Positions 1 through 47,072 of a stretch of DNA of 64,000 nucleotides are shown piece after piece (the first letter of the stretch is position 1; each line of letters starts with the position of its first letter). Where the stretch lies: positions 1 through 64,000 of the forward strand of contig JACCGJ010018394.1 of assembly GCA_013407085.1 (NCBI GenBank), read 5' to 3'. The position numbers and the translations under genes are program-made. The notes beneath the pieces are model-generated. The model searched no databases. It was not told where the DNA came from and saw nothing but the letters and a program-made list of their open reading frames with translations. This stretch comes from Atriophallophorus winterbourni. Taxonomy: Eukaryota; Platyhelminthes; Trematoda; Plagiorchiida; Microphallidae.

Positions 1-58
1 ACTTCTGTTCTTATTACGCCATCCGTCTACACAAATACTAGTTCGAAACGCGAAGAGT

Positions 59-120
59 CCAGCGGATACGCATAGATGATGAGAGGCAAAAACCTCGAAA
101 CCGGTCCTGTGCTTCCGGTG
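59..120 (+). ncRNA. Hammerhead ribozyme, satellite copy 1 (core mutated)
   Basis: Type I hammerhead layout. Helix I is GCATAG (70-75) with CTGTGC (107-112). Helix II is GAGG/CCTC with loop CAAAAA (83-96). Then GAAA (97-100) and a minimal helix III in ACCGGT, with the predicted cut after C106. The first core base, C3, is A here (ATGATGA at 76-82 instead of CTGATGA), which is expected to abolish activity. The fold is by eye. Confidence 0.8.
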
Positions 121-234
121 AGATTTTAGCGTTGCGGAATGGTATTCTACTCTGATCTATCCTGGGGTTGTAATAACCCTCGCGGCAATACGCCGTTGGA
201 TCAGTTGGGGATTAGTTTAGTCCCTTCAGCTACT

Positions 235-306
235 TATAAAGTAGCGAGTAGACGAGAACTTCAGTTCTATTACGCCATCCGTCTACACAAATACTAGTTC
301 GAAACG
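235..306 (+). promoter_or_regulatory. RNA polymerase III-like A and B boxes in the satellite unit
   Basis: TATAAA (235-240) is followed by TAGCGAGTAGACG (242-254), close to an A box but one base short in the spacer. AGTTCGAAACG (296-306) is close to the B box GGTTCGANNCC. The gap between the boxes is tRNA-like, and a TTTT run follows at 380-383, just past the ribozyme. The same set recurs in later units (for example 498-510 and 553-563). This would give a transcript of about 150 nt ending in a hammerhead. Transcription is inferred. Confidence 0.5.
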
Positions 307-314
307 CGAAGAGT

Positions 315-376
315 CCAGCGGATACGCATAGCTGATGAGAGGCAAAAACCTCGAAACCGGTCCTGTGCTTCCGGTG
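315..376 (+). ncRNA. Hammerhead ribozyme, satellite copy 2
   Basis: The core CTGATGA at 332-338 is intact, helix II loop is CAAAAA, then GAAA, helix III ACCGGT and predicted cleavage after C362. Helix I is GCATAG/CTGTGC, then an internal loop, then CGG/CCG. An internal loop in helix I next to a hexaloop on helix II is the arrangement of fast Schistosoma-type hammerheads. All catalytic bases I can check are present. Confidence 0.85.
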
Positions 377-571
377 AGATTTTAGCGTTTCGGAATGGTA
401 TTCTACTCTGATCTATCCTGGGGTTGTAATAACCCTCGCGGCAATACGCCGTTGGATCAGTTGGGGCTTAGTTTAGTCCCTTCAGCTACTTATAAAGTAG
501 CGAGTAGACGAGAACTTCAGTTCTTATTACGCCATCCGTCTACACAAATACTAGTTCGAAACGCGAAGAGT

Positions 572-633
572 CCAGCGGATACGCATAGCTGATGAGAGGC
601 AACAACCTCGAAACCGGTCCTGTGCTTCCGGTG
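572..633 (+). ncRNA. Hammerhead ribozyme, satellite copy 3 (CAACAA loop)
   Basis: The core CTGATGA lies at 589-595, with predicted cleavage after C619. The fold is the same as in copy 2, except that the helix II loop reads CAACAA. The stems and catalytic core are unchanged, so this should be a neutral or mild loop variant. Confidence 0.85.
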
Positions 634-828
634 AGATTTTAGCGTTTCGGAATGGTATTCTACTCTGATCTATCCTGGGGTTGTAATAACCCTCGCGGCA
701 ATACGCCGTTGGATCAGTTGGGGCTTAGTTTAGTCCCTTCAGCTACTTATAAAGTAGCGAGTAGACGAGAACTTCAGTTCTTATTACGCCATCCGTCTAC
801 ACAAATACTAGTTCGAAACGCGAAGAGT

Positions 829-890
829 CCAGCGGATACGCATAGCTGATGAGAGGCAAAAACCTCGAAACCGGTCCTGTGCTTCCGGTG
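829..890 (+). ncRNA. Hammerhead ribozyme, satellite copy 4
   Basis: The core CTGATGA is at 846-852, the helix II loop is CAAAAA, and cleavage is predicted after C876. It is identical to copy 2 across the ribozyme. Confidence 0.85.
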
Positions 891-1086
891 AGATTTTAGC
901 GTTTCGGAATGGTATTCTACTCTGATCTATCCTGGGGTTGTAATAACCCTCGCGGCAATACGCCGTTGGATCAGTTGGGGCTTAGTTTAGTCCCTTCAGC
1001 TACTTATAAAAGTAGCGAGTAGACGAGAACTTCAGTTCTTATTACGCCATCCGTCTACACAAATACTAGTTCGAAACGCGAAGAGT

Positions 1087-1148
1087 CCAGCGGATACGCA
1101 TAGCTGATGAGAGGCAAAAACCTCGAAACCGGTCCTGTGCTTCCGGTG
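1087..1148 (+). ncRNA. Hammerhead ribozyme, satellite copy 5
   Basis: The core CTGATGA is at 1104-1110, the helix II loop is CAAAAA, and cleavage is predicted after C1134. The preceding interval is 258 bp because of one extra A in the TATAAA-like run upstream. Confidence 0.85.
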
Positions 1149-1343
1149 AGATTTTAGCGTTTCGGAATGGTATTCTACTCTGATCTATCCTGGGGTTGTA
1201 ATAACCCTCGCGGCAATACGCCGTTGGATCAGTTGGGGCTTAGTTTAGTCCCTTCAGCTACTTATAAAGTAGCGAGTAGACGAGAACTTCAGTTCTTATT
1301 ACGCCATCCGTCTACACAAATACTAGTTCGAAACGCGAAGAGT

Positions 1344-1405
1344 CCAGCGGATACGCATAGCTGATGAGAGGCAACAACCTCGAAACCGGTCCTGTGCTTC
1401 CGATG
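1344..1405 (+). ncRNA. Hammerhead ribozyme, satellite copy 6 (last copy)
   Basis: The core CTGATGA is at 1361-1367, the helix II loop is CAACAA as in copy 3, and cleavage is predicted after C1391. The outer part of helix I carries a G-to-A change (CCGATG for CCGGTG) at a position that was already mismatched. The satellite breaks off about 35 bases later. Confidence 0.83.
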
Positions 1406-1440
1406 AGATTTTAGCGTTTCGGAATGGTATTCTAGTCTGA

Positions 1441-2928
1441 TCTAGGATCTCTTGTTAAAATCTCCATTCACTGCAATCGTGCTGCAGACGTTTGCTGGAT
1501 TCTACTTCGTTCGAAATGGGTACACCATGAACTATAACAGCTCGGCGATTTGTAGCCTATTTTGCTAGTTCCGGATTATTACGACGAATTTGCCGTTCTT
1601 CCAAAGGAACGTCCGGAAATATTCGCACAGTCGATTTGTTTACAACTAAGAGGGATGAGGCTAGCAACATATTTTCAACATCTTGCACGGACATGAGCAC
1701 TACACGCAGTAACCTGGGTGTGTTCGCACGAGGTGAGTTCGGGGGTCTAAACAATCGCGTCAGCGACGCAGGTGAGGCAGTGATGTATAAGCTTCTGCAA
1801 ATGTCATTCCATTGTTTCCTATCATCTGCTTCGCGTTGCTTTAGCGATGGCGAATTTGATTCAATTAGATTACTACAAATTACCGTTAGATCTTCAATGT
1901 TTGTCTTTTGGGGGTTTTAGTGTTCAAACTCTTCCATCTAAGCTTATGCACATCCTTCGATAATTCAGAACTTTCATTCACTTGACTACAGGTCGGATTC
2001 GCAGACTCATCGGTCGTACCGAGCTGTTGGAAGGGACCTTGGTCGATTTCTGATGAAATCAGCGTTTCCGTAGTAGTTAGCGCTTCCCTGTAAATCTTGC
2101 GGTTAATGTGGTTAGGGAATGTGTTTAGAACTGGTTTCAGCGCTCTCTGACACGCAAATGTTTGGAAAGACTCTAACGGGTTTTCAAGCCGTTTAAGGTT
2201 CGCCTCTACAGCGAACATGCGTCTTTCCATAATTGATTCAGAGTTTTCGGATCTTGATAAATCACTAGTTACTTTCAATCTGCATGGATTACATATATAG
2301 CAGATGCCTGTTAATTTTGCATTATTAATTAGAGTCACAGATTCAGGTGATAAATATATTCACAGTTCGCATGATTAGCAATTGAACGCGACCTGGGACT
2401 TACCAAACGTTGACAAAATTTTCACTTTTTACTAGCCTCGTCGTCAGGTCCGTTTAAGGTCACGTCGGGTCCGTTTAAAGCGATGTTGTCAGTCATCGTT
2501 ACAATTTCGCGAGATCGAGTCGATACACTGAGCGAAGCGGTCGATTATCGATCGTTGGAGTACAAGAACGAGTGGATGTGATGCAGTGCAATCCAACGGA
2601 CCGTAAAATGGCGTACATTTTCACGTAAAGGCTGTTCTGTGAGATTTGATCCGACAGTGTTGAAATAACTGTCAGTAAATACCAAATAGCGAGATCTTCC
2701 TGATGGTATCATAATTGTTGCGTTTTACTGGATTGGAAGCAATGTTGCACGCGTATGCAATGTTGGATAGAACTTGGACTTGAAAATAGTATATTTCGAA
2801 TGATGAAGTTGAGACGAGTTCAATGATATAAGAACCGTCTAGATCCGTCAATAGAGCGAGCAATAAGATCCAAAAGTATGAGAGCACAAATTTGTACGTC
2901 CGTACCGTAGCCTGTATGCTATGATATC
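1441..2928 (-). mobile_element. CR1/L2-like LINE fragment, 5' end and ORF1
   Basis: Minus-strand remnant in the order 5' UTR (about 2915 down to 2345), ORF1 N-terminal part, ORF1 RRM-like part. The 5' UTR resembles that of the element at 47694-48150, sharing blocks such as the GTTGAAATAACTGTCAGT-like run and the ending near AGTATGAGAGCACAAATT. ORF2 is missing: the fragment ends at the satellite junction near 1440. The first 200 bases (1441-1640) reappear, diverged, at 16037-16240, so they belong to the LINE and not to the satellite. Confidence 0.8.
1557..2338 (-). pseudogene. CR1-like ORF1 remnant
   Basis: Two frames cover this span. The upstream piece (2338-1886) has the end of the PHD-like finger (CYICNPCR) followed by a helical stretch starting ESIMERRM. 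The downstream piece (1754-1557) has the RRM-like block PRLLRVVLMSVQDVENMLL, ending in PDVPLEERQ. These match, motif for motif, the better preserved ORF1 proteins at 44092-45386 and 46330-47693. ORF1 proteins of this LINE group bind the element RNA. The frame is broken between the pieces and no complete ORF1 exists here, so it is a dead copy. Confidence 0.8.
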
Positions 2929-3389
2929 CTGCTTTTATTTCAAATGGAAACATTGCCATTATGAGCAACCCAGAATTTCCGCAAACTGTTAATATCATAA
3001 CTTACATTACTTCGTTCATCCATAATCACCTTGAGTGCTTGATCAGGAATCACTATGTGATTCTGCGTTTGAACACCGCGGTTCGTTGTACGAACACTGT
3101 GTAAAGGTGGCATTCAAGTATATCTTTGTTTATTCAAACGGTATTTGGAACATGTTCACACCTGTCATTCCAACGGATCAACAATACATACCCGAGGCCG
3201 GTAGTACAATCTGCTTTGTAGTCATAACTGGAAAATTCAAATTGTGCAGCTAATTATTTTCTCTCGTCTATATCTGCTCGCGACATACAAAACAATTTGT
3301 ATTATGAGAGAAAATTTCAGCTGATTTTTTTCCGACTTTTCCTATCAAAGTATCGGTGGGATCTTTATGGTGCTTTATGGTAAAACAGT

Positions 3390-3480
3390 GGAAGGCGTTT
3401 TTATTCTATCCGTGTCTGTTATACTTGGAACAGTTGACCTGCTACTAGAATCATTCAACTAAATTTTATTAATTTAATCG
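3390..3480 (+). mobile_element. CR1-like ORF2 3'-end scrap
   Basis: Bases here resemble the last codons of ORF2 in the copy ending at 8552: a ...TTTTATTCT...GTGTCTGTT..ACTTGGAA run followed by an AT-rich tail. Only about 90 bases are recognisable. The inverted partner lies near 21690-21790. Confidence 0.5.
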
Positions 3481-4429
3481 AGTGAGTTTATATCCAATCA
3501 TTCGTTTGGTGATTTTTTGTACAATTTGAAGTTTGATTTGTTAGTGTATGTTATTGTTTTACATTCATATTTAATTTTCATCCTCATGTGATTGTTGTGG
3601 AGTTTAATGCTTTTAAGAAAATTAAATACCTTGATTTACCGTGAATTATTCCTAGGCAAACATTTACGGTGAGCGTTCAAATCGCTTCGTGCTTCTATTT
3701 GCGTCGAAAGATTGGCATTTTCTCCAAAACGTACCTCCATACATACGGGATTTTATGTATAGTCATTAAAAGGTACTGTACGAAAATTTTCGATGTTCCG
3801 CCAGTAGATTGGCGACTTCATTGAGACTATAAATCGTCGAGTTGTTATCGCAAATGGTGTATCGAGTTCGAAAGGGCAAGAATTAAGAAAATAACCGCAA
3901 CTGGACTGAGGTGATTGGAGATTATTCCCAGTGATCCTAGGTTTCGATTGCTTAATAACGACGCTTGTTTTGCGAGTTAAACAGAAAGAACAATTGTAAC
4001 ATCCTTCTCCTTTCAAAATATTATTTCGAACAGATAAAATTAAAGGTTTATTATTCACAGCGTGGTACCAATGCGAAAAGTTTGCACCTAAGAAATTCGT
4101 ATTCTCATACGACATAGTGTGTACGAACATGAATGATCCTGAATTTGTTCCACCACATATAGGTCGGCGAATTCAATAATTTAAGTTTTCTGTATGCCAC
4201 AAAATTAAGTAGTTTATCTTGCTGTTAGTATAATGTTCAATGCTTTCCGGCTAAATACTACCCCAAAAAACAGTCTTTGCTGTTCGCACTGGTCACCATA
4301 GTGTATCCCGTAACGCGATGTCTGGATCCGTAATATCACGTCACATAAGATCTTGGTTATAGTCGGTCATGATATTGCTTTCAAGCAAACTGTGACAGAT
4401 CTTGATCATCTAAATCACAGGATCTAACT

Positions 4430-5165
4430 AATAATGACAAATTACCAAGCAGCTATTATATATGTAATCGCGGCCGAGTGAAAGTATCTAGTGATTTATC
4501 AAGAGCTGAAAACTTTGATTAAATTATGGAAAGACGCATGCTTGTTGTAGAGATGAAATTTAAACGGCTTGAAAATACGTTAGTGGCCTACCTATCATTC
4601 GCGTGTTAGGAAGCGCAGAATCCAGTCCCAAACAAAGCCTTAACCACGTGAATTGAAAATCGTAATGGGAAGACGAAACTACTGCGAAAACATTTATTGC
4701 TCCAGAAATCGATCAAAGTCTCTTCCAACAACTCGGTGCCACTAATGACTGTGCACAGCAGACCAGTATTCAACCGAACGGAAGAGTTAAAATATCAATT
4801 GATGTTCATAAGCTAAGGCAGAGTGTTTTGAACAGGAAAATTCCACAAGAGACAAACATCGAAGTGCCAAGGTAATTTGTAGTAATCTCACCGAATCAAC
4901 ATCGCTGTCGCTAAAGCAACAAGAATCAGATAACAGGAAATAATTGGAATGATTTTTGTTGAAGCTTAGGTAGAACTGCCTCACGTGCAACGTTGACCAG
5001 ATTATTTAGACACCCGAACTCACCTAGTACGAACGCATCCAGGTTACTGCGTGTAGTACTAACGTCTGTACAAGATGTAGAAAATATCTTGCTCGCTTCA
5101 TCCGTTTAGGGGTAACCAAATCCTCAGCACTCATGAACGAGTTGATAAGCGGCTATAATAATTTT
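4430..5165 (+). pseudogene. CR1-like ORF1 remnant, heavily broken
   Basis: Reading plus strand, pieces match the ORF1 seen at 1886-2338: the finger end YYICNRGRVKVSSDLSRAEN, then MERRMLVVEMKFKRLENT, then SSNNSVPLM. The RRM-like block follows near 5030-5110. Many stops and frameshifts are present. The mirrored copy is at about 20040-20760 on the minus strand. Non-functional. Confidence 0.7.
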
Positions 5166-5559
5166 GCGCGCTGACTCTTTAATGAATTATTGCTCGATTA
5201 CAAGTCGTACACAAGTGATTTTAATATTTTCGTGATTGTCTCGTCAAGATCTATCGAATAATTCCATCTTTGTTCTACGGAAGGATGACACGTTGATTTT
5301 TCTTATTCGGGATTAATTTACAAATTACATTCACGCGTACATAATTTAGCAGTCTACTACGCATATACGTGAACTTACATCCACTTGAAAGAGCTCAGGA
5401 TTCTACATCCTCTGAGTTCTCTCTCAAGATTGCATTTCGACTGTGGGTATCATCCTTGTTATGGTTTGCAAATCTAAACCTTAATTTTTTCACGCTTCGA
5501 CATCATCTCATCGAAAACCATCGATCTATATTACATTGCCTACATGAAGCATGACTCGC

Positions 5560-8500
5560 CGCGCTAACTTGGACACCGAAACACACACGACAGCACATAA
5601 ACGCGAAACGATGAAACAGAAAGCCGTACGATAAAAGTTCAAAGTATGTACGAAAGGTCTAACTGCCAAGGCAAGTGCTGTGACCTGTAATGTCTGCTTA
5701 GGCAAAATACACGTTAGCTGCGATACGACCTTGACGAAGGAAGTGATACTATCGGGGGAGTTTGCTATACCTGCTCCGAATGCAGACATAGTTCTTGTGG
5801 TCTCTGTGACCCACAGCCCATCCTTGTTGAGAAAAACAACTATGAAATGCATCTACACCAACGCACAATGTCTCGGAAACAAAATCGGTGAACTGCGTGC
5901 AGTTTTTCTGAAATGTTCACCAGACATCATCGCCGTAACGGAAACGTGTCTGCAGACTCAGCAAACAAATAGTGAACTAGAATTACCAGGAATGTCGCTT
6001 ATTCGTCATTACCGTGAAACCAGAGGAGGAGGAGTAACTCAGTATTATAGCCAAAACCTTCTGTGCCGTGAGATTACGGTTCCAGACATCGTGTTACTGG
6101 ATACATTCTGGTGCTCAATCCGACTAGCTAACGGCGAAGACTGTGTTTTGGGAGTAGTATATCGCCCACCGTCTGCACAGGAAACTTACAATCTGGCCCT
6201 ACTGGATAAAATTCGCATGGTTACTTCCAGATACACTTGTGGATTTTTGATTATGGGTGACTTCAATTTACTGAATCAGCAGAGCAAAACCATTTACTCA
6301 GATAACTCCCTCGAGTGCGCATTCAGTGAGTTGTTTGACGATATTCCTCTTTATAACCACATTACATGTAATACCCGATACCGCGGAAACGATTTACCCT
6401 CACTCTTAGATCTCATTCTGACAAGCAATGAACATGACATTGATAACGTTGCTTACGAAAGTCCACTGGGACTAAGTGATCACGTCGTCATTCAGTTTCA
6501 CTATCTGTTTGAAGCTGTAAGAACAAATGATGCCCGTAAAAAAGTTAGGCGGATCAACACTATGGCGTTCAGTGATGCTCTGAAAAACACGTTTAAATGC
6601 CAACCCGAAACCAGCAACGTACATGACTTTTGGATATGGCTAATATCTAATATCAAAAGTTCAATCAAAGTGAGCTCCGAATTTGTCCTCAGGAACTCAA
6701 GAAAAAACTTTGAATTTAAATTAAGAAGCCGAACTCGTAAGTGGTTAACGGTACGAAACATTGCTTGGCGACACCATCGGCAAAACCCATCATCCGAGAC
6801 CTGGGAAACATTCCGTTTACTGCGGAACAAAGTAAACAAATTTGTCATCCAAGACAAGTTGTGCTTCCAAGAAGTGATATCAAGCATGATGGAGCGAAAC
6901 CCCAAAATACTATATCGTATGGTTAACGATCAAGCTAAGGTAAAACCCGGAGTAGCGTCCCTGAACACATAAGCTGGACCAACAACAACTGCAGCAGAAA
7001 CTGCTGATGCTTTAGCCACGTTTTATTCATCGGTATTCAACCCGATACAACATGCAATAAAGAGCCCAAATCCAACACTTTCAAACACGGTTGCCCTAAG
7101 TGAAATAAGTGTCACTGAGAAACGCGTCCTCCAATGTTTATTTAATCCTAAAACGGGAAAGTCTCCTGGGGCCGACGGAATAACCCCGAAAATATTGAAG
7201 CAATTTGCGAGTTTGCTATACAAACCATTCACTTATTTGTTCGAGCAAACACTGGCAAGCGGAGTGATTCCTACAGATTGGAAACGCGGAATAATTTCTC
7301 CAATTTACAAAGGTCGAAATCGCTCCGATGTTTCCAATTACCGACCCGTTACTCTGTTACCAGTGATTTCAAAATTACTTGAGCGACTGATTGTTGACGA
7401 TCTAATGAAACATTTCGAGAATAATTAGGTGCTTTCGAGAAACCAGCATGGATTCAGACGAAATTATTCCTGTTTGTCTAACTTACTGGTAACGCTAGAT
7501 GATTGGACAAAATCGGTAGATAAAGGACAAGCAATACACGCGTGCTACTTAGATATTTCAAAAGCATTCGATCGTGTTGACGATTCCCTACTACTGCAGA
7601 AGCTTGAAAGGCTTTGTATCACTGGAAAGTTGCTGAATTGGCTAAATGACTACCTGACAATCGCACTAACCAGGTACGTGTTGATGGTGCATTATCCAAA
7701 CCAATTGCAGCAACTAGCGGTGTTCCCCAAGGCTCAGTCCTTGGTCCCATCCTCTTTCTGGTTTATGTCAATGAAATACCAGAAATTGTTCGATGTAACA
7801 TTTCGTTATTTGCGGACGACATAAAGATTTGGCGCAGCATTTGTAGTCCAGAAGACTGTCCGCTATTACAAAAGGATCTTGATACGCTTCACAGCTGGTT
7901 GTTGAAGAACAAACTGCCGTTTAACTTCAACAAATGTAAGATCATGAATGTGAGGAATCGAGTAGAGTTCACATATCACATAGGTTTGCATGTCCTTGAA
8001 AATTGCAGTGAAGAAAAAGATTTGGGCGTCTGGATATGCTCCAGTTTAAAAACATCACTTCAAACTAACAGTGCCTTTAAGGAAGCAACACGTGGTCTAA
8101 ATCTACTCAAACGTGTATTTGAGAAATTTTCGACTACGATATTCCCAAGGATCATGAATACATACTTGAGACCAGTCATGGAATACGGTGTGCAGTCATG
8201 GTCTCCGTGGCTCAAGAGGGATGTGGAACGTATGCAGCGAATCAATCACCGCTCAACGAAACTAGTTCTCAGCATCCGAAACAAACCATATAAAGAAAGG
8301 ATAGCTCAACTGAATCTCTTCGATTTTCCCTATCGACGAATCAGAGGAGACCTTATCCTACTTTACCAAACATTCCATAACCCGAACCATCTCTTACAGG
8401 ATTTATTCACGCGAAGGGATACGAGGAATTATCGGACCCATGAATATGTGCTGGTCGTAGCCCATTCCCGCCTGAACTGTAGAAGGTATTTTATTCTGCC

Positions 8501-8640
8501 TGTGTCTGTTTTACTTGGAAAAGTTTACCTTCAACCGTTGCTCATGCCATAAGCTTGCATGACTTTATAACGAAATTAGACGAATTTTTATTACATTATT
8601 CGTTTCCAGAACACTTATATACTGCCTTGACGATTGGACT
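5560..8640 (+). mobile_element. CR1/L2-like LINE copy with internal ORF1 deletion
   Basis: The element runs from a 5' region shared with 19720 (reverse strand) to an AT-rich 3' end near 8640. It keeps the ORF1 finger start and essentially all of ORF2, but the remainder of ORF1 is deleted, so finger codons run straight into the endonuclease. The next CR1 fragment starts right after it at about 8640. Confidence 0.85.
5680..8552 (+). pseudogene. CR1-like ORF2 (endonuclease + reverse transcriptase) with ORF1 finger fused, broken
   Basis: The frame opens with part of the ORF1 finger (CNVCLGKIHVSCD) and passes into an APE-type endonuclease (start YTNAQCLGNK, catalytic VTET, GDFN, SDH near 6475). 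It continues through the CR1 linker (RSRTRKW) into reverse transcriptase (GADGITPKIL, YRPVTLLPVISK, QHGFRR, CYLDISKAFDRVD, then SGVPQGSVLGP and FADDIK). Breaks: in-frame stops at 6970-6972 and 7426-7428, and a frameshift just before 7671. Beyond that the third frame is open to 8552. With only three lesions over 2.9 kb it is a fairly recent loss. ORF2 of this family nicks target DNA and copies the element RNA into it. Confidence 0.88.
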
Positions 8641-15256: not shown

Positions 15257-16250
15257 TCAGGCTGCAGCTGTTAGATTCCAAAGATGTCCATGTGTCGACA
15301 ATAGGGCGATTACTGATGCAAAGTGTGGTCGAAGAACGTTTGCACAATCTTTAATTGATGTAGCTATGCCAGTACGAGAGGCCAGTGGCCTTATTCCCAA
15401 TTTAACACTCCAGAGGTTGTTGACGCGCTTGCGCAATGTTTTGGGATTCAAAATGAATTTTTGACTAGATTGATTTGGTAACGCTTTCTATCAATTAAAG
15501 TAAAGCAGACACCCTTATTTCGCAAATTTAGTCGTGACGGATTTTCTAAGTACTAATTCAAATCCATGTCCAGTTTCAACATCCGTTTATTGCGTACTGC
15601 TCCTAAGAGGCCATTATGGACGCAGCTTGTTGCGTATCATTGATGATACGCAGTTGGTTGGAAAATGTTTCCAATATTTCATAAGTTGATGTGAGTTCGA
15701 AGAAATCCCATAGATTGGCAGAAATATGAGCTCAAGACTATTCATGGTTCACAGTTGTATATGTTTGTTGACTAATTCTTACTGGCTCCTATTGATAGAC
15801 GAATGTCAGGAAAACATGATCACTCAATCAGAGTGAACCTGCATAAGAAACAGATGCCATGATGAGTTCTTTATTTGTGCCTATCACGTCCTGGGTAGAT
15901 GACCTTTCTACTAATCGTTATCGCGTTGGTTGTAAAGTTGGGCTTTTGAAGCATTCGTTACCCGTAATGTCAATGGAAAGTGTTGTTACATTAAAATCAC
16001 CGAGCAATAGCGATTATTATTAAGGGAGTATCAATGCGAAATCTAGGATCTCTTGTAAAAATGTTCATTCACTGCACTTTTGTTGCAGTCTTTTACTGGA
16101 TTCTTCTTCGTTCGAACTGAGTACACTGTGATCGGCAACAGCTCGGTAATTTAAAGCCCCTTTTGCTATATCCGTTAAATATAACAAATTTGTCGTGCTC
16201 CCTATGGAAAGTCGGTATATATTTGTACAAGTTTCAAGATTGAAGTTTTA
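15257..16250 (-). pseudogene. CR1-like LINE remnant: ORF1 end, endonuclease, linker
   Basis: Reading the minus strand from 16250: an ORF1-end scrap (16240-16037, related to 1441-1640), then endonuclease pieces (FNVTTLSIDITGNECF, LSDHVFLTFVYQ, about 16030-15700). The CR1 linker follows (PKTLRKRVNNLWSVKLGIRP, 15451-15257). The order matches ORF2, so this is one degenerate element, and the RT at 13876-14591 may be its continuation. Confidence 0.65.
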
Positions 16251-19439: not shown

Positions 19440-22243
19440 GTCCACATGACCTATGTCTGCATTCGGAGCAGGTATAGCAAACTCCCCCGATCGTATCGCT
19501 TCCTTCGTCAAGATCGTATCGCAGCTAACGTCTATTTTGCATGAGCAGACATTACAGGTCACAGCACTTGCCTTGGCAGTTAGACCTTTCGTACATACTT
19601 TGAACTTTTATCATACGGCTCTCTGTATCATCGTTTCGCGTTTATGTGTGGTCGTGTCTGTTTCGGTTTCCAATTTAGCGCGGCGAGACATGCTTCATGT
19701 AGGCAATGTAATATAGATCGATTGGATGATACCCACATCGAAATGCAATCTTGAGAGAGATCTCAAAGGATGTAGAATCCTGAGCTCTTTCAAGTGGATG
19801 TAAGTTCATGTATATGCGTAGTAGACTGCTAAATTATGTACGCGTGAATGTAACTTGTAAATTAATCCCGAATAGGAAAAATCAACGTGTTATCCTTCCG
19901 TAGAGCAAAGATGGAATTATTCGATAGATCTTGACGAGACGATCACGAAAATATTAAAATCACTAGTGTACGACTTGTAATCGAGCAATAATTCAATAAA
20001 GAGTCAGCGCGCAAAATTATTCCAGCCGCTTATCAACTCGTTCATGAGTGCTGAGGATTTGGTTTCCCCTAAGAGGGATGAAGCGAGCAAGATATTTTCT
20101 ACATCTTGTACAGACGTTAGTACTACACCCAGTAACCTGGATGCGTTCGCACAAGGTGAGTTCGGGTGTCTAAATAAGCTGGTCAACGTCGCACGTGAGG
20201 CAGTTTTACTAAGCTCAGGCAAAAAATCATTCCAATTTTTTCCTGTCATCTGATTCGCGTTGCTTTAGCGACAGCAATGTTGATTCGGTGAGATTATTAC
20301 AAATTATTGGCACTTCGATTTTTGTCTCTTGTGGATTTTTAGTGTTCAAAACATTCGGCCTTAGCATATGAACATCAATTGATATTTTAGCACTTCCATT
20401 CAGTTGACTACTGGTCTGTTGTGCATAGTCATTGGTGGCACCGAGTTGTTGGAAGAGACTTTGATCGATTTCTGGAGAAATAAATGTTTTCGCAGTAGTT
20501 TCGTCTTCCCATTACGATTTTCAATTCACGTGGTTAAGGCTTTGTTTGGGACTGGCTTCTGCGCTTCCTAACACGCAAATGATAGGAAGGCCACTAACGT
20601 ATTTTCAAGCCGTTTAAATTTCATCTCTACAACAAGCATGCGTCTTTCCATAATTTAATCAAAGTTTTCAGCTCTTGATAAATCACTAGATACTTTCACT
20701 CGGCCGCGATTACATATATAATAGCTTCTTGGTAATTTGTCATTATTAGTTAGATCCTGTGATTTAGATGATCAAGATCTGTCACAGTTTGCATGAAAGC
20801 AATATCATGACCGACTATAACCAAGATCATCTGTGACGTGATATTACGGATCCAGACATCGCGTTACGGGATACACTATGGTGACCAGTGCTAACAGCGA
20901 AGACTGTTTTTTGGGGTAGTATATAAGCGGAAAGAATTGAACATTATTCTAACAGCAAGATAAACAACTTAATTTTGTGGCATACAGAAAACTTAAATTA
21001 TTGAATTCGCCGACCTAGATGTGATGAAACAAATTCAGGATCATTCATGTTCGTACACACTATGTCGTATGAGAATACGAATTTCATAAGGTGCAAACTT
21101 TTCGCATTGGTACCACGCTGTGACTAATAAACCTTTTATTTTATCTGTTCGAAATAATATTTTGAAAGGAGAAGAATGTTAAAATTGTTCTTTCTGTTTA
21201 ACTTGCAAAAAAGCGTCGTTATTACGCAATCGAAACCTAGGATCACAGGGAATAATCTCCAATCACCTCAGTCAAGTTGCGGTTATTTTCTTAATTCTTG
21301 CCCTTTCGAACTAGGTACACCATTAGCGATGACAACTCGACGATTTATAGTCTCAACGAAGTCGCCATCCTACTGACGGAACATCGAAAATTTTCGTACA
21401 GTACCTTTCAATGACTATACATAAAATTCCGTATGTATGGATGTACGTTTTGGATAAAATGCCAATCTTTCGACGCAAATAGAAGCACGAAGTGATTTGA
21501 ACGCTCACCGTAAATGTTTGACTAGGAATAATTCACGGTAAATCAAGGTATTTAATTTTCCTTAAAAGCATTAAACTCAACAACAATCACATGAGGATGA
21601 AAATTAAATATGAATGTAAAACAATAACATACACTGAGAAATCAAACTTCTAATTGTACAAAAAAATCACTAAACAAATGTTTGGATATAAACTCACTCG
21701 AGTAAATTAATAAAACTTAGTTGAATGATTCTAGTAGCAGGTCAACTGTTCCAAGTATAACAGACACAGATAGAATAAAAACACCTTCCACTGTTTTACC
21801 ATAAAGCACCATAAAGATCCCAACACTACTTTAATAGGAGAAGTCGGAAAAAATTCAGCCGAAATTTTCTCTCATAATGCAAATTGTTTTGTATGTCGCG
21901 AGCAGATATAGACACGAGAAAATAATTAGCTGCACCATTTGAATTTTCCAGTTTAGACAGATTGTACTACCGGCCTCGGGTATGTATTGCTGATCCGTTG
22001 GAATGACAGGTGTGAACATGTTCCAAATACCGTTTGATTAAACGAAGTTATACTTGAATGCCACCTTTACACAGGGTTCGTACAACGAACCGCCGTGTTC
22101 AAACGCAGAATCACATAGTGATTCCTGATCAAGCACTCAAGGTGATTATGGATGAACAAAGTAATGTAAGTTATGATATTAACAGTTTGCGGAAATTCTG
22201 GGTTGCTCATAATGGCAATGTTTCTATTTGAATTAAAAGCCCA
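19440..22243 (-). repeat. Right arm of large inverted repeat
   Basis: Reverse-complement partner of 2928-5852. It contains the mirrored ORF1 scrap (20040-20760), the endonuclease scrap (20877-20925) and the same non-LINE flank, including the block ending at GGCAATGTTTCTATTTG near 22215-22231. The divergence is far more than sequencing error, so the two arms are separate loci. Confidence 0.85.
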
Positions 22244-29700: not shown

Positions 29701-32700
29701 TGGGAAAACTGCAAGGTGATTTCGGAAACCGATTTAGTAAATGATTTGTGGTCAAGTGGCGAATGGTCACAATTCCTTTAATTATCTGGCCTATGTTTTA
29801 TGTTGAATTCATCGCGTATTTTTAGGTTACACGAATTTACAAATGACTCATTTAAGTTGGAAACATCTTATTCAGTGCTGTTATGCGTAATTTAAATCGT
29901 TACATGCAAATTCGTTCCATTTCAGATTCTAAGGATCTATTTTCCGTCGTGCTGCATGAAATTGGCCACACTGTAGGACTATATCATTCAGATTATATCG
30001 ACGCAATCATGTACGAATATTACGAACCACAATCTGGCGAACCAAAGTTAGGCGGCGATGACATCGATAGAATTCAATGGCTTTACGGTAAGATTAATGT
30101 GACGATGTTCCCAAGGTTGATAGTCCAGAATATAATTCGAGTCCCAGATACAGCTATTAAGTCGCTGTGAGCGTTCGAAAAGTCTCTAGTTTATGCTCCA
30201 GAAATCGCATCGCTTCATGTCAATTACAGTTGTTGCAATCCAACTTTGTAGTAGAATGGGAAATCATTACGTATTTGCAAAATTTGCCCTGTCTGAGGTT
30301 AAGTGGAATCTAGTTTCGCTCAATATACCCAGACCGCTTTGTAAGCGCAAACTGTCCACGCTTGATGTGATTCACATCTTAGTTTAGTATCATCTGCAAA
30401 GAAAACCATTTCGGCTGTGAGAAGTTTCTAAAGGCGTTAATGTATACCAAAATGGAACCGGACGAAGTACCGAACATTGAGGGACAACCCAAGTTGCTTC
30501 GATTTACCTAGACATCACACCATCGTTGAGAACATTTGCCTTGCTATCAAGAAGTTTATTTCTCAGCCAAGTAAAAAAGGCACTCATTTATATTAACATC
30601 CCACAGCTTGCTCAGTTGTATAGAATTGCGACGCGCTCAAACGCCTTTGGTATGTGCAATAGCACATATGCACGCAAACACCCTCATACACTTCCTGCGT
30701 ACAGTCGTCCATTGTCTCCAGTAGGTTGGTCAAGCAAGAACGAGACTATCGAAATCCATGTTGATCTCTGGAAAACTAGTTATGGTTTTCGAGATGACTC
30801 AATAAATTTTCGTACAAAATTCGCGCTCCATAACTTTTCAGTCAATTGGAAGGAGTGTAACAGCGGAAATTTGCTGGGTCAAAACGAATTCCCCCTTTGT
30901 AGATGGGTGTTATGATTCCTCTCTTCTAGTCAGTCGTACGTTATTGCTTTATAATCGTGTGTCATTTTGCTGAATTATTCAAACAGCGCTTTTCTTATGA
31001 CAAGAGCTTTTGAATTTTAGGTCCTCGTACTACACTTAAACGGGCTACTACTACGATGGAATATCCAGTCACGTACCCAACAGAACCGACCACATTTCCC
31101 CCAAGACGTAAGTGATGCAGTTGTAAATAAAAATTAATTATAATGCGGAAGATCGTTCTCGCGAGGGAGCACACACATTCACCTGTATATCACGAAATAT
31201 CTCATTGGTGACTAATTGATTAGTCAGCGAAATCATCAATAAGAATAAAACGCGTTAACTTAACTGCAGAATATTCATTGTTGGAGCCTAAACAGCGTTT
31301 CTAAATCAATCAATAATCAAAGCAACATGTGGTGCTGTTGCGATTTTGAATGAAAAAATATCCGCAATCTTTCTGGTGATGATCACACAGGGCCTGGGTG
31401 TATATACAGCACGAAACGATACAGGTAATATCATAATGGGGGTCATTATATCAGGTCACCGGAGGCCGAATCACGTTCCAGTCTGGACGTTGTTCGCCCA
31501 AGCCTAAAGAACAAGCGATCAGACATTAATCACTTCCACCCCATTTCCTGTCCTGCCATCTAGTGCCTTAGAATTCACACCTCGAGAACAATACGTTGAC
31601 CATAATCCCACACAATTCACAAAATGCACGATCACTTCATTTGGTCTTGTTTTTATTACCTACCTGACAGAGTCACACACAAACAGCTTAATTACTTAAA
31701 GATTATCTAATCACAACTGGCAAACCAAACTTGCGCGCAACGGATGACATTTCGATTTAATTTCTCACGCGATTTCGTGTCACCGGTTTCCTTCGAGTCC
31801 CCACACCATGTTTAGCTCATTTGGCCGATCATAACAAATTGCACGCAAAGGTTCAGACTACCTGATATGAATTTTTTTAAAATTCCATGTGCATATATTT
31901 AGATTATACCGCATGTGCGGGTATATGCGAATGAACAGGTTTGACATGCCAGCCTTATACACTCGTGACCTACAAATGCTTACCTTATTCCGTGTGATAT
32001 GCTTCGCTTGTTTGCCATAAATTTTTAAAATCTAGAGAAAACGTTCTGAATTTGGATCATAATTAGGTTCATAAAATTCGAATCGGAAATGGCTATAATC
32101 GATAGCCGAACATCCAGGTATATAAAACCTTTGCTGCTGACAGATGCACTCTGGTTTTCCTAGAAAACTATAGCTACTTTCAACTCATATGACGGTGAAC
32201 AACCAAGAACCTGTCGCGGTTTGTAGATTCCAAAATATACGAACTCTGAGTTCTAGTCTATTCCGTTGACTTGCTCACTTGCCTTAGATCCATTAAGTGA
32301 AATATTTACTCAAATGTTGACTCTGCTTATCTGTTTTAACAATTACTTCAACATTTATGGTTCTTTAAAAGTTAGTTCATTTAAAACTTTCATTTCAGCG
32401 AATCCTACCACAACGACCACTGCTACTACTCGTCCTAAAATAACAGGTTGGATTTATGTATTGAAATGTCTCCTTTTATTGATTTTAAGTATATTTTTAA
32501 CAGGAAACCTGAAAGGTGGATTAATTATTGCTGTTACAATTAAGACCAATACCTGTAAATTGTTGTGCAAACCTCAAATTTCGTGTGACTAGCATCGGTT
32601 GATTTGAATCAAATTGTGGACCACAGTAAACGACATATCGAGAGTAAAAACATCTGGAATTAATAGAAAACGAAGTAATTATTTAAATAAAACACACGAC

Positions 32701-35700
32701 GAAACAGACAAAAATTTTATAGATAGTTTCGTTGAATATTTGTTATGTTTTGAGCCATGTGGATTGGTAAAATAGTGAATTGGTAACAAGTTTTAAGAAT
32801 CAATCCTTGAAATCGTCTGAAATGATGTAATGTGGTGCTCACATCCCCGCATATACAACCCGCAGATTGTTTTTAACTGTTTGTCTTCATCAAATGGAAA
32901 TACTAAGATTTGATTTAGTTGGCCTTGAAACAGCGGTAATGTGGTAAACAAAGTTGCTGAGATATATTGATCAGTGAGCTGTAAGGAAATCACGTTGTGA
33001 TTCTGTATTTGAACACCGTGGTTTTTGTAAAATCCGTATTCAAGAGTAAAATTTACAAATAACCTTGTTTACCCCTTCACCACTGTGTAAAGGTTCACTA
33101 AACCTAATCATAATATCTCCACAGAATGATCGCATTCAATGAGAAACCGTTTGTGGTGAGCAAATGTGGGTGCATGAGCACAATAATATATTGCTCAGTT
33201 ATAAGGGTATCGAGCGGTATGTGAAATAATCTCTCCACCGATTGATCGTGTTTCTTCTGAGATTACTAACAAAAATTGATCTCATCTGCTGGATTACAGT
33301 GAACGTGGAGACAGAGGATCATCCACTCGTCTACTTATTTGTAAAGCAACCACCGCAGAGTGCAAATGGCTGCATCATTTTGCCTGTATTTTTGGATGAG
33401 TTGTCACATTAGTTTACAATCCATGTGCACTGGATGCGTCAGTATGCCAAGTCGTCAGTGACATTCAAGAAAGAAAGTAAAATGATTCGTTTAATTGTTT
33501 TTGAATCTGTAACTCAATGTTTTCATGCGAGTAAATTTCACGATTGACACAAGAGTTATAAAGAATTTGATCCAAACAGTATGCATGATAGTGTGGAGTA
33601 TGTGTGCAGCACGCTGTTTACACATATGTTAGATTGACACTCAGACGATTTCGTTAATGTTTACTGGGAAATTAGCTCATCACAATTCGAGGCGATCACA
33701 TTTCTCGTATTGGAGAACAATTTAGATGAACCAATATTGAATAAAATGGGAAAACATTCAATTTCAAGACACATGGCGTCATTGAGCTTACTGAAGTCAA
33801 GACTCAATTTAAAATGATCTTCGTATTTAGCATCATTTGATAACAAGTATTAATTACGGGTGGAAATTTTGTTGTCCATTACAGAACCAAGCGTAACCTC
33901 ACCAACAAGTCCAAGAGACAAAGAGCCAAAAGACAGCTGTGACGTACCAATCGACGCAATAGTCAAATTACGTAACCGCGAGTACTTTGTTTTCCACAAA
34001 CAGGTATGCCTGTTTTACATAAATATTGTTTTTAAATTAGAAATCTAATTAAACACAAAGTATATGATACATAACCAAGATGCGGAGGTCAAACTTTTTC
34101 AATCTGGGCCAAACGCGTTTGCGGTCCAAATGTCTATTTAGTTTTTCACCTTCACTTCCTGGAGATTTGTTCGAACTTTAATCACGTCAATCATGGTCTC
34201 TTGTGACGTTGTTTATTTTGTTTTGATTCAAAATCCGAGGACAATAAGTGAACAGTCAATCATCTCGGTTTACTTAGCGATTATAGAAAAACAATTAGTC
34301 AAATAATTAGTGAGCAAACGACAACTTTTCACACAGAGTGTGTTTACTTATAAGCGAATCAAATTATTCATATTACATCTCAAATGTGTCTGCATCCTTT
34401 ACCAATTTGATTAGAATTATTCACGAGCTGATGCAACTGGTTCCCTTCGCGCCTTTAATAACTTGTTGTCGTTTAACCGGTTTCGATGAATTGCATATCA
34501 TTTAATCTTTGATTATGATGATTCTATTTAGTCCTCTTTCCAAGCGAACCATTTTCAGGCATAAAATTGGTCCTGCACTCCTCTATCAATCTCCAATTTA
34601 TGTGTTGAATGTGGATGTTTCCTTGACAGTGATCAGCAGTATTCAGAAGTAAACCTACCTTTGTACTAAAATGCTCATTTGCATGCATTTCCATCACACA
34701 CACACACTCCACGACCGGTTTCGTGCTCTTTGCATTCATTAGGTAGGGACTGTAATATCGGAATCCGCATGTGATTGAAACAGTGCAGGAATGTTTCAAG
34801 CGCATGCGGACCCTGATATTACTGTCGCTACCTGAAGAGTGCACGAATTCCGTCGTGTGGTGTGTGTGATGGAAATTCATGCAAATGAGCATATTGGTTC
34901 ATGGTTATGGGTTTAATCCTATTATACATGTGTTTGGGCACGTGATTCAACAGATTGGTCGTACTAGCCTTATCCAACATTTGCATACAACCGTCCTTAT
35001 ACCACGGATCTAACCGGTCAAGGATCGATTTGACATTTCAATTCTGAACGGAGAATTTGCGTCGGAATACACACATTTCCATCACGTAGAAGTATCAAAA
35101 GCTGCGTTGCTGCAAACATATGAGGTTACTTTGAAAATTTCCGATTTTTGTTTTATGATATAAACACCGAAATGTTTTCCGGATTTCTCAGTATATGTGG
35201 CACGTACGTTGGACAAATTCTGTCGCCGACGGAATAATTTATAAGAACGTTGGTGGGACCACAAATTTTTCCCTTTTATGGACGGCATTGCCCTCGACAG
35301 TGAAAAAAATCGACGCCGGGATCGAATTGATGAATAAAATTTATCTTTTCAGCGGTAAGCATTGGAATATCGAATAAATGTCACATAGATTGCATCTGTG
35401 ATCAGGATCCGGTGCTATTGTACTCCGGATCTCAAATTATAATGATGTCATTTTATCTCGGAAATGGGTGGTATTTACGATTTGCTGTCATATTACCCTA
35501 ACTCGAATTATTATCAACAATAGACAATCAACAACGTGGAATCCAACTCCCACATGCAAATGGAAATCCATACGTTTGTTTGTTTGCGTAATGTTTGTTT
35601 AACGGCAAGACAGTATCAGGAGTGCTCAAAGTTGCAATAATCTTCGACAAAAATACTTGTTCATCAAAGCTGTTTGTCTTTTTCCTTTTACGCAAAACCT

Positions 35701-36799
35701 TATTTTACTATCGCTATTTACCTTTACATATTTGTCGACACAGAAAAATTGAAAAGTTTGGTTTACAGGTTCATAAGTTGTTTGCAATTTATCCACGTTT
35801 TAAGTTATGTGGATCCTGATGACTGCAAACAGATCGAAACCGGTCGTGGTGTGTGTGATCGAGATACATCCAAATGTGTAGTATTTGTCTCAAGTTTGTT
35901 ATTTAAACGGTGGTACTTATAATATAACCAAAATTTCGTCCGGAAGATACACAAATTACTCAAAGAGTGATGTTTTCTCACATTGACAGGTGATCACTTT
36001 TGGATCTTACGTGATGAATCGCACCTGGCCCGGCATTGTCCGCATCGAGGGCTGCCTCTGACCCGAATCGGGTTGCCGGCAGGAGTAACCAAAGTTGATA
36101 CTATATTCCAGTGGTCGAAAAACAATGAAGTCTATTTGATGTCCGGTCCTCGGTATTGGAGATTTGACGCGAAAGTAGGAAGAGTTGCCGCTAAACCAGG
36201 TTATCCACGTTTAATCAAGGACGGCTGGAAAGGAGCTCCGACGCCTGTTAAAGAAATATTCACTGGGCTCAATGGTAAGCTGGTTCCCAAAGCGATCGAA
36301 ATGTAATAGCAAACTGAGATCAAGTAATTATGCACCACATGTGTTCTGTAAATATTCCAAGCCATTTATTATACGATGGTCTTCACTGAACTTTAGGATG
36401 CTTAAAATGCCTTCATTTTTACATATACCGAACTCCCGTGTATATAATTGAGAGAAGTTGTACAATAAAATGTCTAAGCATATGACGAGGTAAATATTCA
36501 CACTTTTAAAATCACCACGCTAGAGCGAGAAACATTTTGATTCTTGGTATTTTGGGAAATTATGGCTGGGTAAATATTCCCAAATGATAAATCGTCGGGG
36601 GATTGTAAGTAAAAACTATTGATAAAACATCACGAAAAAATTTATTAAAAAAACAATAACTCAGTTATTTCCATTTACAGGTGAAACGCTATTCATAAAA
36701 GGAAAAAAGTACTTTGAATTCAGCAACATTGAGATGCGTATCACCTCTCGCTCTCCCAAACCGACTCAAATACGTGCCTGGGGTTGTCTCCTAAATTGA
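23644..36799 (+). CDS. Matrix metalloproteinase (M10A), 11 exons, 564 residues
   Basis: Secreted zinc endopeptidase. Eleven exons with GT-AG borders join in one frame without a stop until 36797-36799. Residues 1-20 are a signal peptide (hydrophobic YLLIIFGMFL). The propeptide follows with the cysteine switch RCGNPD (Cys101) and a minimal furin-type RQPR (124-127). The catalytic domain (about 128-292) has the structural zinc/calcium region GDHNDGYPLDG, the zinc site HEIGHTVGLYH (248-258) and Met-turn IM266. A Thr/Pro hinge covers 293-353. The hemopexin domain runs from Cys355 to Cys561, the expected disulphide pair, with repeats such as LRNREYFVFH and VYLMSGPRYWRF. Family enzymes cut matrix proteins and are kept latent by the switch Cys. 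The usual PRCG is SRCG here. A diverged inverted paralogue lies at 55136-62593. Exon joins are by hand, and an extra upstream non-coding exon is possible. Confidence 0.93.
24880..25110 (-). mobile_element. CR1-like ORF2 3'-end fragment in MMP intron 1
   Basis: The minus strand reads CDCRRYFYSVRVFFVLN, matching the CRRFFYSVRVCFLWNSLP end of ORF2 at 41261-44119, with preceding degenerate thumb sequence. The rest of intron 1 (23752-25338) holds no other recognised feature besides an imperfect CATA run at 24250-24285. Confidence 0.68.
25339..25643 (+). CDS. MMP exon 2: propeptide with cysteine switch
   Basis: Begins after CATTAG and ends ...TGG AG before GTAGCG (phase 2). It encodes the helical propeptide (HAAIQSFQIEYGLPFTGEID), the switch SRCGNPDAP, RRQPR and the start of the catalytic domain (YYWKKSPLLW). 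Confidence 0.93.
26346..26533 (+). CDS. MMP exon 3: catalytic domain, first part
   Basis: Acceptor TTCCAG, donor GTATGA. Encodes ISWDDTKKTIEKAFDKWSDVAELNF and the metal-binding GDHNDGYPLDGK. Phases fit exons 2 and 4. Confidence 0.93.
26534..28422. other. MMP intron 3, no further feature recognised
   Basis: 1.9 kb of AT-rich intron. A 60-codon minus frame at 27422-27604 and an 87-codon plus frame at 27958-28221 have no family I recognise and are treated as chance. Confidence 0.5.
28423..28533 (+). CDS. MMP exon 4: catalytic domain, middle
   Basis: Acceptor TTATTTAG, donor GTATGT. Encodes AVLAHAVY and VDVHFDDDEDW, carrying the His and Asp ligands of the structural zinc and calcium. Confidence 0.93.
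28598..28670. mobile_element. Short palindromic MITE-like element in MMP intron 4
   Basis: 73 bases bounded by TA. The first 21 bases (TACAGTCAAATCTCGCTGC...) and the last 21 are inverted repeats matching at 16 of 21 positions. The terminal sequence resembles pogo/Tigger-type inverted repeats. No coding capacity. Confidence 0.5.
28847..29080 (-). pseudogene. Possible DDE transposase fragment in MMP intron 4
   Basis: The minus frame contains CIMLWFDNSSHHTNKSGMQ, then DLIWTIMEE. This resembles the FDNSSNH...MRDTIW segment of one DDE superfamily transposase group. Only about 75 codons remain, with no start or end. It may equally be chance similarity. Confidence 0.35.
29926..30087 (+). CDS. MMP exon 5: active site
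   Basis: Acceptor CATTTCAG, donor GTAAGA. Encodes the catalytic zinc helix HEIGHTVGLYH, the Met-turn and the closing DDIDRIQWLYG. Confidence 0.95.
30230..30935 (-). pseudogene. CR1-like RT fragment in MMP intron 5
   Basis: Reads on the minus strand as a diverged copy of 41990-42615 within the intact ORF2, from the YRPVTLL region to the FADD region, with many stops and indels. The plus-strand open frames here are antisense shadows. Confidence 0.85.
31021..31107 (+). CDS. MMP exon 6: hinge, first part
   Basis: Acceptor ATTTTAG, donor GTAAGT. 29 residues rich in Thr and Pro (ATTTMEYPVTYPTEPTTFPP). The phases match on both sides. Confidence 0.85.
31108..32398. other. MMP intron 6, nothing coding recognised
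   Basis: Contains a TATATAAAA sequence near 32118-32126 and palindromic ATACCGCATGTGCGGGTAT near 31906-31924, but no coding or transposon signature that I can name. Confidence 0.4.
32399..32446 (+). CDS. MMP exon 7: hinge mini-exon
   Basis: 48 bases, acceptor CATTTCAG, donor GTTGGA (weaker than the others). Encodes NPTTTTTATTRPKIT. The paralogue has a 63-base version at 62531-62593, which supports this exon. Confidence 0.82.
32790..33190. repeat. Dispersed repeat family, copies in MMP intron 7
   Basis: Two facing copies of an unclassified repeat. The minus-strand one ends near 32830 (GATGTGAGCACCAC) and the plus-strand one runs from about 33000 (GTATTTGAACACCG) to 33185 (GAGAAACCGTTTGTGGTG). 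The mirrored versions lie at 61790-62200 in the paralogue. Confidence 0.6.
33885..34003 (+). CDS. MMP exon 8: hinge end and start of hemopexin
   Basis: Acceptor CATTACAG, donor GTATGC. Encodes the first hemopexin Cys (SCDVPIDAIVKL) and blade 1 strand REYFVFHKQ. Confidence 0.92.
34676..34896. repeat. Fold-back element in MMP intron 8
   Basis: Two arms of about 105 bases are near-perfect inverted repeats around a short centre near 34795. The outer ends read ATGCTCATTTGCATG and its complement. The equivalent fold-back is at 60120-60350 in the paralogue intron 8. Confidence 0.85.
35192..35354 (+). CDS. MMP exon 9: hemopexin blade 1-2
   Basis: Acceptor TTCTCAG, donor GTAAGC. Encodes WTALPSTVKKIDAGIELMNKIYLFSG. 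Confidence 0.92.
35805..35885 (+). repeat. Single arm of the fold-back family in MMP intron 9
   Basis: GATCCTGATGACTGCAAACAG, then GAAACCGGTCGTGGTGTGTG, matching the inner part of the fold-back arms. Mirrored at 57895-57975 in the paralogue. Confidence 0.6.
35990..36274 (+). CDS. MMP exon 10: hemopexin blades 2-4
   Basis: Acceptor TTGACAG, donor GTAAGC. Encodes DTIFQWSKNNEVYLMSGPRYWRFD and GYPRLIKDGWKGAPTPVKEIF. Confidence 0.94.
36681..36799 (+). CDS. MMP exon 11: hemopexin end and stop
   Basis: Acceptor TTTACAG. Encodes KYFEFSNIEMRI, then WGCLLN and TGA. The Cys four residues from the end pairs with Cys355 in this family. Confidence 0.92.
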
Positions 36800-44119: not shown

Positions 44120-44853
44120 CGGCCGTTTTTTGGGATTGCCACAGTGTTTCTAATCGGAGTCTCGTCTGATTGTGGAAGGCGTGGTTCATTAGAAGGCGTA
44201 GAAAGTCTGTGATCACTCATTCTGACATCCTTCGGGAGATTCCTATAGTTTGCTTTCCAGTTAGCCCTAACTGATTCCATCATACCTTTCGTTAAAAGTG
44301 TTACTTTCAGAGGTTTTGGCCCGTCACCTTTATAGTTTGGTGAACGAGGTATTCTAAAAGTGTCCACCACAACTGACTCGTGAGCCCCGATGCTGTTGGC
44401 AACATAGAGCCACTGTTTGTAATCGTGGTGCTGTATTTCACTTCCTGAAGCAGTGTCAGTGTGTTCGGGAACACCAAGAAGAACAATACTGCGTTGGTCA
44501 CATTTTTTCCCATTGTTCAAATTACCTTTCCTCTCCCACCACGGAATATCTGCATGTATGCGACATTTAGTCTGTGAGAATGTACGTAGCAAATAAGAGT
44601 TTAACAGAACGTCTTCCATCTCTTTTTGGCTTTTGAAAGTTATTCTCAGTAAACGTGGTTCATCGAGATGAGGAGAATTGGGGTGCCGACTTAGGCGGGT
44701 TATTGAATCGGGCAGTATCGAGCTCATATTCATCATTGAACACAGCTGGTACCATTGTTCAATGTCGTGAGTTCTTCTACTCGAGAAAAGTGTCCCTGAT
44801 GTCTCCGGCACATTGGTGCAAATTACACTGAGATTCATCAAAGTTCTTTTCAT
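44092..44853 (-). CDS. CR1-like ORF1, C-terminal part (RRM-like)
   Basis: 253 codons are open from MKRTLMN, but the real frame enters upstream (VNQIRKSKGRVLTVHQQN). Contains LSVICTNVPETSGTLFSSRRTHDIEQWYQLC and the RRM-like block EPRLLRITFKSQKEMEDVLL. Then come CRIHADIPWWERKG, IVLLGVPE and VVDTFRIPRSPNYKGDGPKPLKVTLL. ORF1 of this group is an RNA-binding partner of ORF2. It is separated from the finger part by a one-base frameshift near 44930, so this copy cannot make the whole protein. Confidence 0.88.
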   Translation of the reverse strand: MKRTLMNLSVICTNVPETSGTLFSSRRTHDIEQWYQLCSMMNMSSILPDSITRLSRHPNSPHLDEPRLLRITFKSQKEMEDVLLNSYLLRTFSQTKCRIHADIPWWERKGNLNNGKKCDQRSIVLLGVPEHTDTASGSEIQHHDYKQWLYVANSIGAHESVVVDTFRIPRSPNYKGDGPKPLKVTLLTKGMMESVRANWKANYRNLPKDVRMSDHRLSTPSNEPRLPQSDETPIRNTVAIPKNGRCPTLEGSD

Positions 44854-44897
44854 TTCATCATTAGTTTTTGAAGTAGAGGAATTCTGCTGGTGGACAG

Positions 44898-46309: not shown

Positions 46310-46329
46310 TGTCGAATCGTGTACTGTAG

Positions 46330-46983: not shown

Positions 46984-47072
46984 GTGTGTACAGAGCTTAG
47001 TCCATTCATTGAGCTCATGTGCTTTTCTTGCTGAGAAAAGTGAATCTGTCGATTCCGGGATATTTGTGCAGA

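Follow-up and report, generated by a model that had tools for sequence, protein, structure and literature searches.

Type I hammerheads in a 257-bp tandem array of the trematode Atriophallophorus winterbourni

The 64,000-nt stretch of Atriophallophorus winterbourni DNA analysed here (contig JACCGJ010018394.1, positions 1 to 64,000 of the forward strand; hereafter the window) opens with tandem units, each of which was proposed in an earlier note to carry a Schistosoma-type hammerhead ribozyme. The locus raises the question of whether these hammerheads are genuine, how they would act, and what kind of element the array represents.

The array and its hammerhead motif

Tandem Repeats Finder placed the array at 1-1444 on the plus strand (5.6 copies, 98% matches), truncated on the left at the window edge. 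The array itself was thus as described in the earlier note, with its end moved from 1440 to 1444, and the period of 257 bp given there was right to one base, the units between predicted cuts measuring 256, 257, 257, 258 and 257 bp. Counting mismatches and gaps together, these five units differ from one another at 0 to 4 places. The third and sixth, which lie three units apart and both carry the loop variant CAACAA, are identical, which hints at exchange or a higher-order repeat. A BLAST search of the unit against the remaining window gave no second locus better than E 1.1. No ORF of at least 120 aa begins within the array, and the GC content of window positions 1-2000, array included, is 0.459.

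In copies 2 to 6 the motif runs in the order GCATAG, CTGATGA, GAGG, hexaloop, CCTC, GAAA, CCGG, TC, cut and CTGTGC. The 6-bp helix I and hexaloop layout proposed earlier was found in all five: GCATAG pairs with CTGTGC, one of the pairs being G-U, and the hexaloop is CAACAA in copies 3 and 6 and CAAAAA in the remaining copies. CTGATGA starts at 332, 589, 846, 1104 and 1361, and the cuts predicted after 362, 619, 876, 1134 and 1391 were reproduced exactly. In copy 2 (314-385, plus strand), helix I is formed by 326-331 with 363-368, CTGATGA occupies 332-338, helix II 339-352, GAAA 353-356 and the palindrome ACCGGT 356-361. The earlier note gave the layout for every unit and an intact core for copies 2 to 6; a strict motif scan bore out copies 2 to 6, and in copy 1 (58-129) ATGATGA at 76 represents a core change, C3 to A, by which it is presumably inactive.

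With both strands of the window scanned in this way, 5 matches were returned; 7.68 Mb of control sequence, generated by a first-order Markov model of the window outside the array (60 × 128 kb), gave none, ruling out a chance origin of the motif. In Rfam, at open thresholds, all six copies matched Hammerhead_HH9 (RF02275) on the plus strand with 38.4-42.5 bits: 39.6 for copy 1, 42.5 for copies 2, 4 (828-899) and 5 (1086-1157), 40.6 for copy 3 (571-642) and 38.4 for copy 6 (1343-1413). E-values ranged from 4.6e-9 to 9.7e-8 for the 1.8 kb searched and from 1.7e-7 to 3.5e-6 for the whole window. The check set by the earlier note, a covariance match above threshold, had a negative outcome though these E-values are strong: no Rfam matches were obtained at the curated gathering score, the copies falling 9.5 to 13.6 bits short of the HH9 cut-off of 52. 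Part of this shortfall arises because five helix III positions of the HH9 model are missing in the array hammerhead. For the minus strand of the array, neither Rfam at open thresholds nor the strict motif scan gave a ribozyme. The type I core, comprising CUGANGA and GAAA, helices I and II, an open end at helix I and a cut after UH, is intact in five of the six copies. The array carries a genuine type I hammerhead, one per unit and in phase; its loop sequences, judged by eye, are compatible with loop-loop contact.

Helix III and cutting in pairs

The sequence ACCGGU, made up of the last A of GAAA, CCGG and U, is its own reverse complement and has no loop bases. Helix III of the Rfam type I consensus is closed around four inner positions; with ACCGGU, a closed helix III is impossible inside a single hammerhead and can form only between two copies, through six pairs. 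Cutting should therefore need two units, and the array ribozyme probably works only in pairs, as a double hammerhead. Folded as one chain, the double hammerhead was the more stable at -31.7 kcal/mol, against -27.0 kcal/mol for two single hammerheads; with two separate strands it reached -35.5 kcal/mol. The unconstrained minimum-energy fold of the monomer was a non-hammerhead structure (-23.7 vs -20.2 kcal/mol with the hammerhead forced), as was that of the dimer (-49.2 kcal/mol), a result to be taken as a caution and not as decisive, the energy model being blind to core and loop contacts. Folded as a circle, the unit reached -95.6 kcal/mol against -64.0 kcal/mol for shuffles (sd 5.3, n = 200, lowest -80.4), with 68% of its bases paired and the ribozyme core covered; for plant retrozymes, too, a circular fold covering the core is described (PMC4918200). 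That a long transcript would chop itself into units, as the earlier note had it, is a fair expectation, qualified by the preference of unconstrained folds for an alternative that covers the core.

The Schistosoma-type label likewise stands in part. The hammerhead is of type I, with SM-alpha as a close parallel; its best match is HH9, and its helix III lacks a loop. A plain copy of the Schistosoma ribozyme was rejected since the best Rfam family and helix III both differ.

Newt and viroid hammerheads are known to act as dimers, and the same is reported for those of Penelope type (PMC6155905, PMC6466107, PMC7761336). Axolotl units are reported to reach 6% and 22% cutting within one hour as monomers and to cut much better as dimers (PMC7229834), and mosquito and sea anemone hammerheads that failed alone were suspected to need dimers (PMC3088659). 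Because most of the invertebrate retrozymes tested cut as monomers, according to PMC7761336, the loopless helix III is untypical. Five hammerhead candidates with an extremely short stem III are described for the W-elements of S. mansoni; three cut in vitro, and the two that did not are core or site mutants (PMC8490949). A satellite hammerhead with a near-absent helix III is already known in kind, flukes included. The loopless palindrome predicts that a single unit would be slow or silent and two units active, and a test on single-unit RNA could stay silent although the array works. If the array functions in this way, its natural core mutant and its five intact, nearly identical units form a clean test set.

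Promoter-like boxes, other hammerheads and retrotransposons in the window

Each copy also carries a motif resembling a Pol III B-box, GTTCGAAAC, at 554-562 on the plus strand and at 41, 297, 811, 1069 and 1326. About 100 nt before it lies an A-box-like motif, TGGATCAGTTGG, at 453-464 on the plus strand and at 197, 710, 967 and 1225; its agreement at 11 of 12 positions with what we take to be the A-box consensus is suggestive only. The pattern GTTCGANNC occurs 11 times in the window, six of them inside the array, compared with 6.6 (sd 2.5) in shuffles, and outside the array the window showed no enrichment of the B-box pattern over shuffles. An internal Pol III promoter in the unit is possible from its sequence; the box alone carries little weight, and a spacing of 26 nt common to two loci, described below, weighs more. 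ARAGORN in its bacterial setting found no tRNA in the array, nor did Rfam report one across positions 1-1800 with E allowed up to 10. Copies of SM-alpha type are described as carrying A and B boxes (PMC2576457), and schistosome repeats as carrying a tRNA (PMC4918200).

A related hammerhead lies on the minus strand at 51723-51773 (HH9 36.6 bits, E 1.5e-7, below the cut-off), with a B-box at 51791-51799. From the end of the B-box to CTGATGA there are 26 nt at both loci, the box being GTTCGAGCC at 51.7 kb and GTTCGAAAC in the array, and the core flanks of the two loci agree at 9 of 12 positions before the core and 10 of 13 after it. This match of 19/25 was the best of 124,998 placements in the remaining window, the next best being 17, in a test whose spacing was taken from the 51.7-kb locus itself and whose two arms pair mutually. 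Binomial odds overstate the kinship because the helix arms are not independent; we propose with moderate confidence, from the sequence, that the array unit and the 51.7-kb hammerhead share descent. The stems that the earlier note could not place in a named family are partly common to a B-box-bearing hammerhead 50 kb off in the same window.

The 51.7-kb hammerhead is probably inactive, its GAAA being replaced by AAAA; G12 is likewise reported as lost in most hammerhead copies of the SmPoMuc introns of S. mansoni (PMC2576457). By analogy, the locus may be SINE-like. Its best A-box, in the piece examined, agrees at 9 of 12 positions, ARAGORN in its bacterial setting and Rfam gave no tRNA match, and no second copy was found in the window beyond a 61-bp partial match. 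Long microsatellites of ACAT and ATAC type lie at 51012-51286 and 59411-59706.

A third setting is provided by decayed minimal hammerheads, of which there are seven arms at five loci. An inverted repeat at 60117-60343 has 109-nt arms, 84% complementary, with one decayed motif per arm (26.0 and 25.3 bits against Hammerhead_1, cut-off 34). A second copy, at 34662-34901 (34.7 kb), also has two arms, with the decayed motifs facing outward as at 60117-60343, and single decayed arms lie at about 57.9, 35.8 and 22.6 kb. GAAACCGGTC is present in three of the seven, and by analogy the arms look like the minimal dispersed motifs of Penelope-type elements. Rfam also gave microRNA families (MIR1444 among them) at 60.2 and 34.7 kb, all below cut-off, and these were read as inverted-repeat hairpins and not as microRNAs. 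Three hammerhead settings are found within one 64-kb stretch, making flukes suited to the study of ribozyme passage among SINE-like elements, satellites and Penelope-like elements.

Larger similarities were also observed. Positions 32247-36326 and 57436-62743 are similar in inverted orientation over a large, broken stretch (80-82% identity across segments of 2.8 and 1.2 kb); the similarity reaches a hemopexin-domain ORF (57414-57800, minus strand) and is tentatively read as a local duplication near that ORF rather than one transposon. Positions 2921-5813 and 22252-19429 form an inverted duplicate, about 94% alike over 2.5 kb and 0.3 kb.

Pieces of non-LTR retrotransposons with endonuclease and reverse transcriptase domains occur at 41261-47717 (minus strand), 5635-8552 and 63057-63869 (both plus strand), some with cysteine-rich upstream ORFs that matched no Pfam family. 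For an ORF here labelled CR1-like, the best named relatives among the best 120 of 337 matches were from the flukes Paragonimus westermani (54%) and Dicrocoelium dendriticum (41%), in a list that also includes names of tapeworm, stork and bacterial-bin origin. An ORF here labelled RTE-like gave 77 matches, in which the best named relatives were again from flukes, namely Dicrocoelium (57%), Schistosoma rodhaini (52%) and Fasciola hepatica (51%); tapeworm, bat, frog and bacterial-bin names occurred as well. The retrotransposons thus indicate a digenean source.

Origin of the array and comparison with known systems

At the right junction (1440-1629, plus strand) a dispersed repeat is broken by the array, and ATCTA at 1440-1444 fits both sides. 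The flank matches 16041-16229 at 76% from 1440 onward and, from 1442, both 3940-3824 (minus strand) and 21237-21353 at 70%; the latter two are one duplicated stretch, 94% alike, and hence not independent. In the matched copies the repeat extends leftward with its own sequence and without an array unit. These empty copies indicate that the array interrupts a dispersed repeat. The array ends 53 nt past a predicted cut site. The junction fits reverse transcription of a circular template, primed at a short stretch common to both sequences, and recombination fits equally.

The array is likely to be a multi-unit copy of a non-autonomous non-LTR retrozyme or SM-alpha-like retroelement that forms unit-length, probably circular RNA by means of paired hammerheads. 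Read-through or internal Pol III transcription would yield a multi-unit RNA, which double hammerheads would cut into pieces of about 257 nt. A host RNA ligase would then close the unit RNAs into circles, and the reverse transcriptase of a retrotransposon would copy round the circle to give multi-unit cDNA inserted elsewhere. The ligase and the retrotransposon reverse transcriptase are those of the model described for retrozymes (PMC7761336), and it is from relatives that we infer transcription, cutting, circles and mobility for the array.

We are doubtful that the array represents an obligate double-hammerhead retrozyme driven by a Pol III promoter of its own, in which long, looped helices I and II of SM-alpha type are joined to a loopless palindromic helix III of Penelope type and only multi-unit RNA cuts. 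If this were true, cutting would depend on tandem arrangement, neither single units nor circles would be recut, the array would act as its own dimer switch, and the element might connect the SINE-like and Penelope-type ribozyme lineages of flukes.

It is similarly unlikely that the array is ordinary satellite DNA, expanded by unequal crossing-over after capturing its hammerhead from an element of SINE-like or Penelope-like type, in which case the ribozyme may cut and would have no role in spread. The identity of the non-neighbouring units 3 and 6 is what exchange between copies predicts, recombination would also give an array end 53 nt past a cut site with 5 bases common with the interrupted repeat, and the unit has no second locus in the window. 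Against this, the unit size, the strong self-pairing and the intact cores in five of six copies fit a maintained retrozyme, and PMC7229834 reports circular transcripts of like repeats from coral, mussel and axolotl. That the array stems from a Penelope-like element, as its tandemly amplified pseudo-LTR or tail piece, with a hammerhead serving that element and not a SINE-like one, is very improbable: a helix III without a loop is the minimal type described for Penelope-like elements (PMC7761336), and GAAACCGGTC recurs among the decayed motifs elsewhere in the window, but the long helix I of the array, with an internal loop opposite a hexaloop, is unlike the minimal type, and Pfam found no GIY-YIG domain in the 10 ORFs scanned of the 35 of at least 120 aa. 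A DNA copy of a viroid-like RNA replicating from RNA to RNA is hardly credible, for although the unit RNA is compact, highly self-paired and equipped with a self-cutting motif, its minus strand yielded no ribozyme by Rfam or strict scan, a loose pattern gave one match among viral contigs (long, phage-like, helix II poorly paired) and an array-specific pattern none in prokaryote genome contigs, both collections being ill-suited to the question.

The preferred reading, a retrozyme or SM-alpha-like element, agrees with what is described for animals. Animal retrozymes, flatworms included, are reported with such a unit size, one type I hammerhead per unit, multimers and species-specific sequence (PMC7229834). 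Like these metazoan non-LTR retrozymes, the array repeats a unit of a few hundred bp that contains a single type I hammerhead, and it shares with them a strongly self-paired unit RNA, the lack of a coding region and a GC content under 50%. With a unit inside the range of about 150-450 bp, it shows those metazoan retrozyme sequence features that could be tested. It differs in a helix III without a loop or an unpaired base, whereas most tested invertebrate retrozymes cut as monomers. Among the matches listed in the open-licence PMC literature, no hammerhead satellite was found in a non-schistosome fluke, a weak negative. If the array works as proposed, it would add a probable dimer-acting satellite ribozyme to the flukes.

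The SM-alpha SINE-like elements of Schistosoma (Ferbeyre 1998, as described in PMC8490949, PMC2576457 and PMC4918200) share with the array a fluke host, a type I hammerhead and satellite-like arrays, and their B-box has a B-box-like motif upstream of the array hammerhead as its counterpart; the array, likened to them by description only, differs in having no detected tRNA and in a helix III that falls short of the Rfam type I consensus in length. The S. mansoni elements W25.2, W26.2, W27.2 and W36.2, which occupy the W chromosome and autosomes, are also satellite-like fluke repeats with an extremely short stem III, and three W-element hammerheads cut, as reported in PMC8490949, the likeness to the array again being by description only. 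The satellite hammerhead of newt and axolotl, which works as a dimer, has a palindromic helix III as well; in the newt type this is a base pair with a palindromic tetraloop (PMC7229834), whereas in the array the palindrome is the helix itself. Minimal hammerheads from Penelope-like elements, for which dimer action is reported (PMC7761336), resemble the array in a helix III without non-conserved bases, and the array differs from them in its long helix I with an internal loop, its helix II hexaloop and the absence of Penelope coding from the ORFs scanned (10 of 35). Hammerhead_HH9 has, like the array, UAC ahead of helix I and an A-rich hexaloop, although five of its helix III positions are absent from the array and the scores remain below its cut-off by the margin given above. 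Among these systems, the array is a new member of a type of repeat already known, and its notable trait is the loopless palindromic helix III.
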